Position numbers and translations under genes: made by a program
In this document: positions 339-64,000 of the stretch, piece after piece
Layout of the letters: each line of letters starts with the position of its first letter
Position numbering within the stretch: position 1 is the stretch's first letter
NCBI RefSeq assembly: GCF_040427915.1
Contig: NZ_JBETXJ010000002.1
Location: forward strand, 868,001 to 932,000
Origin: Gardnerella vaginalis
GTDB lineage: Bacteria > Actinomycetota > Actinomycetes > Actinomycetales > Bifidobacteriaceae
Length of the DNA stretch: 64,000 nucleotides
Reading direction: 5' to 3'
The notes under the pieces: generated by a model
What the model saw: only the letters and a program-made list of their open reading frames with translations
What the model was told of the DNA's origin: nothing
Database searches by the model: none

Positions 339-369
339 TTGACTTTTTTAAACGGGGGGGGGGTATGTT
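339..369 (+). promoter_or_regulatory. Candidate phase-variable promoter with G10 spacer
   Basis: A -35 box TTGACT (339-344) and a -10 box TATGTT (364-369) are separated by 19 nt, and the last 10 of those are an unbroken G run (354-363). Gain or loss of a G by slippage would change the spacer; 8 G would give the optimal 17 nt. This is the known architecture of phase-variable promoters such as Neisseria porA. The transcript would start near 376 and lead into the surface-protein gene at 495. The layout is seen directly; switching is inferred. Confidence 0.7.
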
Positions 370-494
370 AATAAGCAAACGCTAGCTGCTCCTAGTTTTG
401 GCTGGTGTTTAAACCACTATTCACGTGTTGTGGATTGTGGAGCAAATTTTTCTCTGCGCCCCTAACGCAGAGGAGAAGAAGAAAGGAAATTAAA

Positions 495-1739
495 ATGATG
501 AATAAGAAGGCTATCGCTGCTTTCGCTGCTGGCGCTACTTTGCTTGCCGGCTTCGCAATGGCAACCCCAGCAATGGCTGCTACAACCTGCCCAGTGCCTG
601 CACCACTCAAGAGTGCTGCTAAGACTGCTGCTGATGCTGCTTACACTGCTTACCATAATGCTCAGGTTGTTCTTGAAGGTATGACAGTTTCTCCAGCTCC
701 TGCAAAGGATTCTGAGGCTGAACATTATACTGTTAAAGTTTTGGCTACTGGCTTGTTGAAGAATAATGCTGATTCATCTGAAGTCTCACATGATTTGTAT
801 GAGAGGGTTCAGAAGTATGTGGATGCTTACAATGCTCATTTAACTTCCAAGGCTGCTTATGATGATCAGAATACTAAGGTTGAGAACCTTAAGGCTGAGT
901 GGATTAAGGCTAAGGATATTCTTGAGAATTGCGCTAAGCCAGATCCAACTAAGGATGAGCTTAATCGTGCTGAGATTAAGAAGGTTTACGACGCTAAGCA
1001 GGCTAAGGATAATAAGGAAGATATCCTTAATAAGAAGCAGAAGGCTTTCGATGATGCTTTCAAGGCTTTGAATGCTGCTACTGCTGAGGCTAAAGCTCGT
1101 CAAGCTGCTGTTGATGCTGCGCAAGCTGCTATCGATAAGTTTGAGGCTTCTGGCGTGACGGATTCTGCTACTCTCCAGAAGTTAAACGATGCTCTTAAGC
1201 GTGCTCAGGCTCATCGTGATCGTGCCTTTAAAGCCCTTGGAGATGCTCAGAAGGCTTACGATGATGCTTTGAAGGATGTTAAGAAGGCTGTTTCTGATTA
1301 CAATGATGCTTTAGCTTATTACAAGGCTGTTTACAATGAGGCTGTTGCTATGGGTATTAACCCAGATGATTTGCCACCAGTTGTGACTGATGATCCTTTG
1401 GATCCAAAGTTCCCAACCGTTCCAGATGCTCGTGATCTTTACTCTAAGGCTTTGAGTGGTAAGTTTGGTAAGGATGTTCAGCAGGCGGCTCAGAAGGCTG
1501 AGGCTGGTAAGAATGCTCCAGCCGCTGCTGGCGCTCAGGGTGCTGCTGGTGCAGCTGGCGCTGCCGCTGGTAAGGCTGGTGCCGCTGCTGCTAAGGGTGA
1601 GCTTGCTACCAAGGGTGGCAATAGCCATGGTAAGGCTGGCGAGAAGCTTGGTAATGCTGGTGTTGGTGTTGCTTTGACTGCTTTGGCTGCTTCTATGCTT
1701 GCTGGTATGGGTGCTGCTGTTCGCAAGATGCGTCACTAA
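495..1739 (+). CDS. Secreted alanine-rich coiled-coil surface protein
   Basis: Encodes 414 residues from an ATG at 495, preceded by AAAGGAAA (482-489) at good spacing; the longer reading from GTG 405 has no ribosome site. The N terminus is a signal peptide ending near ATPAMA-A. The body (about residues 60-320) is rich in Ala, Lys, Asp and Asn with heptad-like spacing, so a long helical coiled coil is likely. A Gly/Ala-rich stretch follows, then a hydrophobic segment and the basic end RKMRH, which resembles a wall-sorting or membrane-anchor tail. No LPXTG is present; LATKG precedes the tail but is not a recognised sortase site. I do not recognise the family. The ligand or function is unknown. 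Expression may switch through the G10 tract upstream. Confidence 0.8.
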   Translation: MMNKKAIAAFAAGATLLAGFAMATPAMAATTCPVPAPLKSAAKTAADAAYTAYHNAQVVLEGMTVSPAPAKDSEAEHYTVKVLATGLLKNNADSSEVSHDLYERVQKYVDAYNAHLTSKAAYDDQNTKVENLKAEWIKAKDILENCAKPDPTKDELNRAEIKKVYDAKQAKDNKEDILNKKQKAFDDAFKALNAATAEAKARQAAVDAAQAAIDKFEASGVTDSATLQKLNDALKRAQAHRDRAFKALGDAQKAYDDALKDVKKAVSDYNDALAYYKAVYNEAVAMGINPDDLPPVVTDDPLDPKFPTVPDARDLYSKALSGKFGKDVQQAAQKAEAGKNAPAAAGAQGAAGAAGAAAGKAGAAAAKGELATKGGNSHGKAGEKLGNAGVGVALTALAASMLAGMGAAVRKMRH

Positions 1740-39245: not shown

Positions 39246-40445
39246 ATGGCAAAGGAAAAGTACGAGCGTACTAAGCCGCATGTTAACATTGGTACCATTG
39301 GTCACGTTGATCACGGTAAGACTACCTTGACCGCGGCTATTTCTAAGGTGCTGCATGGCGAGTATCCAGATCTGAACCCTCAGTATGACTTCGATCAGAT
39401 CGACGCCGCTCCAGAAGAGAAGGAGCGCGGCATTACCATTAACATCGCCCACATCGAGTATCAGACGGATGCACGTCACTATGCTCACGTGGACGCCCCA
39501 GGCCACGCTGATTACGTTAAGAACATGATCACTGGTGCCGCTCAGATGGATGGCGCAATCCTCGTGGTTGCTGCTACCGACGGCCCAATGGCTCAGACCC
39601 GTGAACACGTCTTGCTTGCTAAGCAGGTCGGCGTTCCAAAAATTCTTGTTGCTTTGAACAAGTGCGATATGGTTGACGACGAAGAGCTTATCGACCTCGT
39701 TGAAGAAGAGGTTCGTGACCTCCTCGAAGAAAACGGCTTCGATCGCGATTGCCCAGTCATCCGTACTTCCGCTTACGGCGCTTTGCATGATGACGCTCCA
39801 GACCACGACAAGTGGGTAGAGACCGTCAAGGAACTCATGAAGGCTGTTGATGAGTACATTCCAACCCCAACTCACGATCTTGACAAGCCATTCTTGATGC
39901 CAATCGAAGATGTGTTCACCATCTCCGGTCGTGGTACCGTTGTCACCGGTCGTGTTGAGCGTGGTAAGCTCCCAATCAACACCCCAGTGGAGATCGTTGG
40001 TTTGCGCGATACCCAGACCACCACCGTCACCTCTATCGAGACCTTCCACAAGCAGATGGATGAGGCCGAGGCTGGTGATAACACTGGTCTTCTTCTCCGT
40101 GGTATCAACCGTACCGACGTTGAGCGTGGTCAGGTTGTGGCTGCTCCAGGTTCTGTGACTCCACACACCAAGTTCGAAGGCGAAGTTTACGTCTTGACCA
40201 AGGACGAAGGTGGCCGTCACTCGCCATTCTTCTCCAACTACCGTCCACAGTTCTACTTCCGTACCACCGATGTTACTGGCGTTATCACCTTGCCAGAAGG
40301 CATCGAAATGGTTCAGCCAGGCGATCACGCAACCTTCACTGTTGAGTTGATCCAGGCTATCGCAATGGAAGAGGGCTTGACCTTCGCAGTTCGTGAAGGT
40401 GGCCGTACTGTTGGTTCTGGTCGTGTGACCAAGATTCTTGCCTAG
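39246..40445 (+). CDS. tuf: Elongation factor Tu
   Basis: Delivers aminoacyl-tRNA to the ribosome as a GTP complex. 399 residues: [14 protein letters not shown] (P-loop), [49 protein letters not shown], then domains II and III ending in [18 protein letters not shown]. Ribosome site AGGAGG lies 7-8 nt before the ATG. Codon use is the most biased in the window. A strong terminator follows, so it closes the str operon. The elfamycin- and kirromycin-site residues look ordinary. Confidence 0.98.
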
Positions 40446-40540: not shown

Positions 40541-40781
40541 ATAGATCGTTTGGTGTTGTTTGGTGTTGTTTGGTGTGTTTTTAATTTTTATTTTTTTTTT
40601 TATAGTTATCACAAAAATTATCACAACATTGTGTTTTAAATGTTATTGTACAAATGCTGAAAGCGTGTCTGAGATTCAGGCTTTTGTGGGAATATTGGGA
40701 TAAATCGTATAAATCATATGTGAATAATGAAAAATCTAAATACGAAAAAACCCAAGCCGTAAAGCTTGGGTTTTCAACAAG
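40541..40781. other. Intergenic stretch with short repeats, no gene seen
   Basis: About 40550-40578 holds three tandem copies of the 10-mer TTGGTGTTGT, then a T-rich block. Short frames crossing the tRNA on either strand have no ribosome site and look spurious. Confidence 0.5.
40744..40774 (-). terminator. Terminator after tRNA-Lys
   Basis: On the minus strand AACCCAAGC pairs with GCTTGGGTT and runs into six T residues (plus-strand CCCAAGC 40751-40757, GCTTGGG 40764-40770). It lies about 10 nt past the tRNA 3' end. Confidence 0.85.
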
Positions 40782-41002: not shown

Positions 41003-42349
41003 ATGCCTTTGCTAAATATGACGCTTTTCAATCAAGATTCTGGCTATCCTCACAATGACAACGTTAGTCAAAATGAAGTTAGTCAAAATAGCTACGATAG
41101 TCAAAACAGTAGTGCTGCGCGCACGCTACCTTTGCGTGCAAGTGAAACAACTGCTGAAAATCCTTGGCCAGTAAGCGTTATAAGCCAAAAGTTCCATGGT
41201 GCTGTAGAAAAGTGGCCTGCGGCTTGGGTAGAAGGTCAGATTGTTGAAATCAATATGCGAAGGTCTACGTCTGGATACATAACGCTCAGAGACAGTAATG
41301 AAGACGTTTCAATCTCAATAATGGGCTTTAGCAAGTTTGTTCAGCAAGCTAAAGATTTGCGGCAGGGCGATAGAGTAGTTGTTCACGGCAAGGCGGATAT
41401 TTGGGTAAAAGCCACTAGATTGAGCTTTGTTGCCGACGAAATTAGACGTGTTGGCGCTGGCGACTTAAAAGCGCAAATAGATGAGTTGCGTAAAAAGCTT
41501 AAAGGTGAAGGCTTGTTTGACGCGGAAAATAAAGTGCAGCTGCCTGAGTTTCCAAAGTGCATTGGTTTGGTGTGTGCGCCTCAAGCTCGCGCAGAGGGCG
41601 ATGTTATTACAAACGTGAATTTGCGCTGGCCTGTAACGCGATTTAAGGTGGTTCACGCGCATGTTCAGGGCGTGCAATGCCCAGCGGACGTTATTGCGGC
41701 AATTAAGCAGCTAGACGCCGATCCAGAGGTTGATGTGATTATTGTTGCGCGCGGCGGTGGTAGCTTTGAGGATTTGATTGGGTTTTCGGACGAAGGCGTG
41801 GTTCGCGCTACGGCTGCTTGCGTAACTCCGATTGTTTCTGCGATTGGTCACGAAGATGATTGGACGCTTATTGATTTGGCTGCAGATATGCGAGCCTCTA
41901 CGCCTACAGACGCAGCAAAGCGCGTTGTTCCAGATGTTAACGAGCAATGGCAGTTGATTGATAACGCTTTGCAACACGCGCGCATGAGGATTTCTGCGCG
42001 AGTGGACAATGAGATTCGACTTGTTGAAGGCTACGCGAACCGTCCTAGCCTTACTAGACCGAGCACTATGCTGGAGCCGCATGAGTTGTTTGTGCAACAG
42101 GCTGTTGAACGAATGAGGCATGGTTTGGTGCGGCTGCTTGACGACGCTAGTTTGACTGTTGAAAAGGCACATGCCAGTATTACGGCTCTTAGTCCGCAAT
42201 CAACGCTTAATCGCGGTTACGCAGTCGTGCAAATTAGCGGCGGAAAAGTGCTTGACGATTCTAGTCATGTAAAAACTGGCGACGATATAACAGTTACTCT
42301 TAAAAGTGGCTTGATTACAGCTAATGTTACGTCTGTAGAAAAGTCGTAA
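41003..42349 (+). CDS. xseA: Exodeoxyribonuclease VII large subunit
   Basis: Catalytic chain of the nuclease that degrades single-stranded DNA to short oligonucleotides. 448 residues: OB-fold domain from about residue 50 (WVEGQIVEINMRRSTSGYITLRD), then the nuclease core with IGLVCAPQARAEGDV, VIIVARGGGSFEDLIGFSDE and VSAIGHEDDWTLIDLAADMRASTPTDAA. The C terminus has NRGYAVVQ. The first 45 residues are Asn/Ser/Gln-rich and not conserved in the family, so a shorter start such as ATG 41018 is possible; no clear ribosome site marks either. xseB follows after about 100 bp of repeats. Confidence 0.95.
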   Translation: MPLLNMTLFNQDSGYPHNDNVSQNEVSQNSYDSQNSSAARTLPLRASETTAENPWPVSVISQKFHGAVEKWPAAWVEGQIVEINMRRSTSGYITLRDSNEDVSISIMGFSKFVQQAKDLRQGDRVVVHGKADIWVKATRLSFVADEIRRVGAGDLKAQIDELRKKLKGEGLFDAENKVQLPEFPKCIGLVCAPQARAEGDVITNVNLRWPVTRFKVVHAHVQGVQCPADVIAAIKQLDADPEVDVIIVARGGGSFEDLIGFSDEGVVRATAACVTPIVSAIGHEDDWTLIDLAADMRASTPTDAAKRVVPDVNEQWQLIDNALQHARMRISARVDNEIRLVEGYANRPSLTRPSTMLEPHELFVQQAVERMRHGLVRLLDDASLTVEKAHASITALSPQSTLNRGYAVVQISGGKVLDDSSHVKTGDDITVTLKSGLITANVTSVEKS

Positions 42350-62999: not shown

Positions 63000-63575
63000 A
63001 AGATTTTGCATCATTTTTAACTCTTTATTTCTATTATCAAAAATCCTATATTTAGTATGTTTTATTATGCAAAGTGCTGCATATTGTGTTTTAAGACACG
63101 CCGAGTGTGATAATTTCGATGCTAAAAAGCGAAAAATATAAAGTTTTCAATATATTTTTAACGTATTTTATGGTGATCTTTATAGAATCTAGGAATTTTT
63201 ACGAATATTAAAAAAATGTGTAGATTTTCCTTGAATTTTCTATGGGGGGGGGGGTACAAATGTATACGTGCTTTGCAGTAGTGCACTGTATTATTTTGCA
63301 TTTGAGCGTTTGGCGCGAATTTAACTACTGGTTTTGGGGAGGCTAGGTGTGCTTACGTTTATTTAACGCTTGCACAATAGTTTTCATCAATAGTTTCGCG
63401 TTGTTTGCGTAGTCGGCTTACGTTTGTTTACGTAGCTGGAATGCACGCTTTTTTGCTTGCAATGCAGTGGATTACACCACGGGCAATGCTTGTTGGCTTT
63501 AAGGTTGGGTTGCTTTAGAGTTGATGGGCGTGAGTATACGAGTAACTTGAGATTTTGAGAAATTGGTGCGTTAGA
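63000..63575. other. Long 5' control region before the second surface protein
   Basis: About 576 nt without a supported gene. It holds the G11 promoter-like site at 63231-63260. Downstream the transcript would have a leader of about 310 nt, in which GCTTACGTTT is repeated (63350s and 63415s), and GGGAGG near 63337 precedes a five-codon frame starting GTG. Whether the leader is regulatory is unknown. Confidence 0.5.
63231..63260 (+). promoter_or_regulatory. Candidate phase-variable promoter with G11 spacer
   Basis: TTGAAT (63231-63236) and TACAAA (63255-63260) are 18 nt apart, and 63244-63254 is an unbroken run of 11 G that abuts the -10. This is the same layout as at 339-369: TTGA, T-rich stretch, G run, -10. 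Confidence 0.65.
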
Positions 63576-64000
63576 ATGTTACGGCTTCATGACTTATTGA
63601 ACTTGCGTAAGCAGTTTAGAATGCTTAATGCTTCTTCTTCAAATAGTTGCATCCGTATTCTTTCATCACACACTCTACGCCGCGCTCTTCTAGCAATGCT
63701 CGTAGCCGCCGCCACCATAGTAACCATGCTCATCGTGCCGCCAGTACAAGAAGCTAAGGGTTATGCAGATGGTAAAGTACCGATTCACGCTTGGTGGAAT
63801 AGTTTTGGTACAGGTTTTGTGTCTGGTTCTGGCTTTGGAATAGGGGATGCTCCTAGTCAAATTGCTTCTAATGTTGAAGTTGTTCGCAATGTTTATGACT
63901 CTTCTACTGGTAGAAATAGAACTCAGATTAAATGGGAAGTGTTCTTCAATACTTACTCTCAAATGTACGAGAGTATTGTAACAGGTGAACCTTATAGCGG
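63576..64000 (+). CDS. Secreted surface protein, N-terminal part only (runs off the window)
   Basis: The frame is open to the end of the window (about 141 codons) and is incomplete. From ATG 63576 (or the in-frame ATG at 63621) it gives a basic segment, a hydrophobic signal-like helix near LLAMLVAAATIVTMLIV, then a mature part rich in Ser/Gly/Thr/aromatics (AWWNSFGTGFVSGSGFGIGDAPSQ, then WEVFFNTYSQMYESIV). This fits the start of a large exported or wall-anchored protein; the sequence resembles none I can name. No ribosome site is clear for either start. Its promoter-like region carries the G11 tract. Confidence 0.65.
   Translation, partial: MLRLHDLLNLRKQFRMLNASSSNSCIRILSSHTLRRALLAMLVAAATIVTMLIVPPVQEAKGYADGKVPIHAWWNSFGTGFVSGSGFGIGDAPSQIASNVEVVRNVYDSSTGRNRTQIKWEVFFNTYSQMYESIVTGEPYS

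Follow-up and report, generated by a model that had tools for sequence, protein, structure and literature searches.

Poly-G tracts in promoter spacers have been described ahead of surface protein genes of distantly related bacteria, e.g., for porA of the Gram-negative Neisseria meningitidis, where 9 to 11 Gs separate the -35 and -10 elements and expression with 10G and 9G lies 2-fold and 13-fold, respectively, below that with 11G (PMC3639595), and for the reporter-tested tp0126 promoter of Treponema pallidum, whose optimal spacing is said to be 17 (PMC7864442). In Bifidobacterium breve, intragenic G tracts switch pilus genes by frameshift, and other G tracts are said to lie in promoter spacers (PMC9187656). 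For surface genes of Gardnerella, homopolymer tracts were reported in 2024: those of at least 8 are numerous, about 70% of the G/C tracts are found in the 300 bp ahead of genes, many of the genes concerned encode Rib, FIVAR or LPXTG proteins, and one tract measured 9 or 10 bp by Sanger sequencing among colonies of two strains (PMC11287997). The main text of that report, which deals with the same organism group, gives no promoter register, and the word promoter occurs there only in the title of a reference. Slipped-strand mispairing in Gardnerella nanH3 has been cited as well (PMC11868660, PMC10187134). The present analysis deals with a candidate promoter at positions 63231 to 63261 on the plus strand of a 64,000-nucleotide stretch of Gardnerella vaginalis (contig NZ_JBETXJ010000002.1, positions 868,001 to 932,000; the window), which precedes the gene for a predicted large surface protein.

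The 63231 site is probably a phase-variable promoter of the porA kind in which spacer length is the variable. Its -35-like element TTGAAT (63231..63236, plus strand, as all elements given here) is followed by the T-rich 7-nt segment TTTCTAT (63237..63243), a G11 tract (63244..63254) and the -10-like element TACAAAT (63255..63261; hexamer TACAAA at 63255-63260), and with G11 the -35/-10 spacer measures 18 nt, the tract lying flush against the -10. These coordinates confirm the layout that had been proposed in a sequence-only reading of the window, i.e., TTGAAT and TACAAA 18 nt apart, 11 Gs abutting the -10 and T-rich sequence before the run. In the proposed mechanism, replication slippage in the G tract of a sigma-A-type promoter would add or remove Gs next to the -10, shift the spacer over a range of about 16 to 21 nt and thereby tune the engagement of RNA polymerase with the promoter; the amount of the large LPXTG-anchored Rib/YPDG surface protein would then differ from cell to cell. 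That the promoter at 63231 is active, that its tract changes length within a clone and that this affects transcription are all three inferred from sequence, whereas the graded expression of porA, which likewise has a poly-G in the promoter spacer of a surface protein gene, has been shown experimentally for that one gene. The same architecture links the site to tp0126, which belongs to another phylum, and the pilus tracts of the related genus Bifidobacterium share with it the G tract and the connection to surface structures, but switch within the coding sequence.

The leader between promoter and gene extends from 63262 to 63576. The frame behind it could begin as early as a TTG at 63555 and runs to the window end at 64000 and beyond (63555..64000; L040:2556-8069), with the ATG at 63577 as the likelier start. 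The product of 1837 amino acids (aa) has a long N-terminal region with a signal-like hydrophobic stretch (heuristic), RibLong (E = 5e-19) and YPDG_rpt (E = 1e-19) domains, both above the curated cut-offs, and an LPKTG near its end, the LPXTG motif standing at residue 1762 counted from zero. Pfam reported no anchor domain for this protein. With a predicted signal peptide, Rib-type domains and the anchor motif present, the gene is annotated here as encoding an exported, LPXTG-anchored Rib/YPDG surface protein.

Evidence for the promoter comes from relatives of this protein, which were counted at E values of at most 1e-20 among 112 genomes of the genus and occur in 12 of them; named loci carrying a relative are those of Bifidobacteriaceae bacterium NR047 and Gardnerella vaginalis PSS_7772B. 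All 12 genomes have at least one relative with a G8-G13 tract 119 to 541 nt upstream of the frame, at the place equivalent to that of G11 in the window. Thirteen family promoters were examined (two of them in genome G105), and the 11 that are readable ahead of the tract (two are masked there) all show TTGAAT, TTGAAA or TTGCAA 7 to 8 nt ahead of the G run, with spacers of 16 (one promoter), 17 (four, one of them by eye), 18 (three), 19, 20 and 21 nt (one each). Past the run, TA.AA.T was found in 11 of the 13 promoters, and the remaining two have TATATT and TATAGT. When six of the 11 readable promoters were aligned, TTGAA, the G run and TA.AA.T proved invariant amid divergent surrounding DNA. 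Across species and paralogues, the only level at which the comparison was made, tract length differs (G8-G13, spacers of 16-21) while the flanking hexamers persist. In genome G109, the likeness to the window DNA ends at the tract (query positions 1-153). A further promoter in the same genome as the window, at 1611k, shows 74% likeness across 114 nt and stands before a signal-bearing LPXTG protein whose RibLong match falls just under the curated cut-off. The closest orthologue of the surface protein (L082; G105:C1:475707-481151) contains a TAG inside its frame.

The only other G/C run of at least 8 within the window belongs to a candidate promoter at 339..369, which consists of TTGACT (339-344), TTTTTAAAC (345-353), G10 (354-363) and TATGTT (364-369); 9 nt lie between TTGACT and the tract, and the -35/-10 spacer measures 19 nt. 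For comparison, a first-order Markov model predicts 0.0035 runs of at least 10 per 64 kb. The exported protein behind this promoter (495..1739, plus strand) belongs to no Pfam family and has only an NCBIfam match far below the cut-off. The description of the two sites as near-identical was overstated: the flanks of 63231 and 339 agree at 10 of 30 ungapped positions upstream and 7 of 30 downstream, and detectable homology between them was rejected on these grounds. What they have in common is the layout without recognizable sequence likeness, and they represent different promoter lineages. The 339 type exists in six near-identical promoter copies in the genome (window 339-1739; L032, L033, L035, L037, L039). 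These copies precede a family of exported Ala-rich proteins that hardly differ in their signal peptides and C-termini, and Pfam found no family in the three 339-type proteins scanned.

The whole genome (1.64 Mb, three contigs, 41% G+C) contains 22 G/C tracts of at least 8, every one of them 9 to 13 long. A chance origin was rejected, as 0.5 tracts of at least 9 are expected per 1.64 Mb. Thirteen of the tracts are located upstream of a same-sense gene, and a simple heuristic assigns a signal-peptide-like N-terminus to each of the 13 products, compared with a baseline of 9 of 41 window genes, of which one is a tract gene and some are probably false positives. FIVAR, Listeria-Bacteroides-repeat, pilin (GramPos_pilinD1, SpaA), DUF285 and RibLong proteins are among the products behind upstream tracts. 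Twelve of the 13 tracts run directly into TA, the exception being that at 1616k, 530 nt from its gene. The 13 include the six 339-type copies and two members (97k, 365k) of a second repeated family, so that independent lineages number about six or seven. Three of the 22 tracts precede exported or membrane proteins in C sense (652k, 1506k, 1622k), four are intragenic (1076k, 1366k, 1534k, 1535k) and two remained unassigned (1165k, 1275k). The intragenic tracts (1076680 in L041, 1535217 and 1534649 in L047, 1366799 in L044) lie in an LPDTG protein, a glycosyltransferase-like frame and two membrane-type frames, and could serve as frameshift switches.

The pattern check suggested by the sequence-only reading was extended from the genome to the genus. 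In slightly widened form (TTGA-N4..14-G8+-TANNNT), the pattern gave 61 matches in 23 of the 112 genomes, while its reverse gave 3 matches in 3 genomes; the 63231 site itself is outside the 61, as its -10 lacks the final T. Of the 12 genomes with a gene for the surface protein, 11 have the layout, versus 12 of the 100 others. The 339-type family accounts for 35 of the 61 matches, with spacers of 18 (10 matches), 19 (23) and 20 nt (2). At 30 loci inspected out of the 61, 22 downstream frames begin exported-like by eye (two partly masked), four are zinc-ribbon-like, one is ABC-transporter-ATPase-like, one is ambiguous, and two loci yielded no frame. In other bifidobacteria (L052, L057, L062, L074), the same layout was seen by eye ahead of zinc-ribbon-like proteins.

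A shared promoter layout ahead of exported proteins is thereby upheld beyond chance (61 versus 3 matches; 13 of 13 signal-like products versus 9 of 41), and tracts are not found equally often within genes or before cytoplasmic ones with no promoter alignment, given that 13 of 22 precede exported genes. With four tracts intragenic, three in C sense and two unassigned, the layout does not extend to every tract. The two window sites, both before exported proteins, belong to different lineages. Six of the 22 tracts, 339 included, belong to one repeated family.

The sequence behind the tracts was also assessed in a sample of 134 Gardnerella-clade tracts, collected from the 12 genomes with the surface protein by a two-flanking-letter pattern that captures 12 of the 22 tracts in the window's genome. 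TA directly follows 81 of the 134 tracts and, after grouping, occurs in 23 of 50 groups (131 rows without masked bases). For comparison, in DNA of the window's genome TA follows about 8% of single Gs, 21 of 172 G4 runs and 4 of 29 G5 runs. The strict grouping used here dropped the 3 masked rows, and its largest group, of 34 rows, may combine different lineages; a looser first grouping had lumped 77 of the 134 rows into one group. The enrichment of TA supports the interpretation of the downstream element as a -10, but is by itself no proof.

Several observations weigh against a spacer-length switch. The 63231 site was not listed by a scan with the generic sigma-70 consensus, and the -10 beside G11 is a weak TACAAAT, in which the hexamer TACAAA does not end in the consensus T and the T arrives one base later, while some relatives have TATATT or TATAGT instead. 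Judged from the consensus alone, the site is weak, and it is the comparison with relatives that argues for a promoter. Several loci of relatives show no tract, although many of these are mid-gene matches without upstream DNA in the piece. The textbook spacer of 17 is absent among the 35 339-type matches, and the 97k/365k family would require spacers of more than 20; either the optimum differs, or the sequences of many genomes captured a state of low expression. Some groups of tracts followed by TA are intragenic. Finally, TTG at a spacer of 16-19 is weakly enriched (6 of 23 TA groups versus 3 of 27 others), and its frequency at 15-21 (33 of 40) differs little from that at the control distance of 22-28 (23 of 40), an effect due in part to a second TTG in the 339-type family.

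The orientation of the tracts may be linked to replication. In the window's genome, G is found on the strand of positive GC skew, i.e., the inferred leading strand of the replichore, for 21 of 22 tracts, with sign changes of the skew at 500k-540k and at 1320k-1340k; when only the local skew of each piece is considered, 17 of 20 pieces are consistent with leading-strand G. In the single contig of G105, G of 19 of the 20 tracts collected from a longer set is on the inferred leading strand, and the one exception in each genome seems to be a shared intragenic site, found at 1076k here and at 616k in G105. Binomial values for this bias overstate it, since tract families are not independent. Of the five genes here with a C-sense tract, four (652k, 1506k, 1535k, 1622k) are situated on the inferred lagging strand. 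A mirrored layout, in which TTGATA is flush with C8 or C10 and followed after 9 nt by TATAAT or TACAAT (spacer of 17 or 19), was detected in four genomes (G036, G106, G108, G109), and these cases probably form one lineage; a fifth TTGATA-C run (G109:C30) has no -10 at a fitting distance. The 1506k site (G000:C2:1506373-1506382; L046 near 1873-1925) reads, by eye, TTGATA-C10-9 nt-TATGTT with a spacer of 19 and is located 42 nt ahead of an exported protein. A tentative generalization, which we consider possible but on balance doubtful, is that surface-gene promoters of Gardnerella and some bifidobacteria carry a slippage tract flush with one hexamer and that replication rather than the gene determines the G strand, with G at the -10 for leading-strand genes and C at the -35 for lagging-strand genes. 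If true, replication asymmetry shapes the construction and the drift of these switches, and a leading-strand rule that holds makes its part in keeping the tracts testable.

Among the alternatives to a spacer-length switch, an action of the tract at the promoter by means other than spacing, i.e., through the binding of a regulator, the shape or melting of the DNA or the initial bases of the transcript, a mode that has been proposed for Treponema pallidum tprL, survives best, even if it appears rather unlikely. It would suit the position of the tracts flush with a weak -10 and the spacers of the sequenced copies, which are often 18-20, but relatives keep the TTGAA block at near-spacer distance, and in the mirrored C-run form the -35 abuts the run, past which a good -10 follows. 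There is only a slight chance that the tract is part of a transcribed leader with the true promoter further upstream and acts on translation or stability of the RNA; the leader is indeed long (about 300 nt), but the tract keeps its register with the conserved promoter-like blocks on both sides, and the 339 type differs in the gap to the ribosome-binding region. An equally small probability is assigned to neutral tracts, i.e., products of a mutation or replication bias near surface genes that have no role in switching. The leading-strand G of 21 of 22 tracts here and 19 of 20 in G105 points to a replication-linked component, but the tracts occupy one fixed place in many species and ahead of a narrow class of genes, and the register kept between conserved blocks disfavors a neutral process. 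Hardly any credence is left for a translational frameshift with the tract in an unrecognized leader frame fused to the surface gene, which has a precedent in the intragenic tracts of B. breve (PMC9187656) and would match the 4 of 22 intragenic tracts here, but was rejected for the 63231 site, unless the gene truly starts elsewhere, as no open frame leads through the tract into the gene, whose frame is closed by an in-frame stop in the leader 288 nt past the tract, and as a stop past the tract is present at all 13 family loci and for 12 other same-sense upstream tracts tested here. Slippage past which such a stop follows cannot act by frameshift, and with this mode excluded, transcription is the likely level of action.

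The open-licence literature searched yielded no description of the promoter-spacer layout for Gardnerella, and as far as this literature goes, the promoter register, its conservation around the surface gene, the mirrored form and the strand rule are new. A promoter controlled by spacer length would turn the published upstream tracts into a concrete, testable mechanism in which tract length translates into promoter spacing. If true, tract lengths from long reads could predict, for about a dozen surface proteins of a cell, the state of expression and would help to explain the variation within clonal vaginal populations.

Two minor observations may be added. An Rfam search gave a single match, below threshold. 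A run of T11 at 40591-40601 of the window, between a frame ending at 40445 and a frame starting at 41003, is another possible slippage tract.
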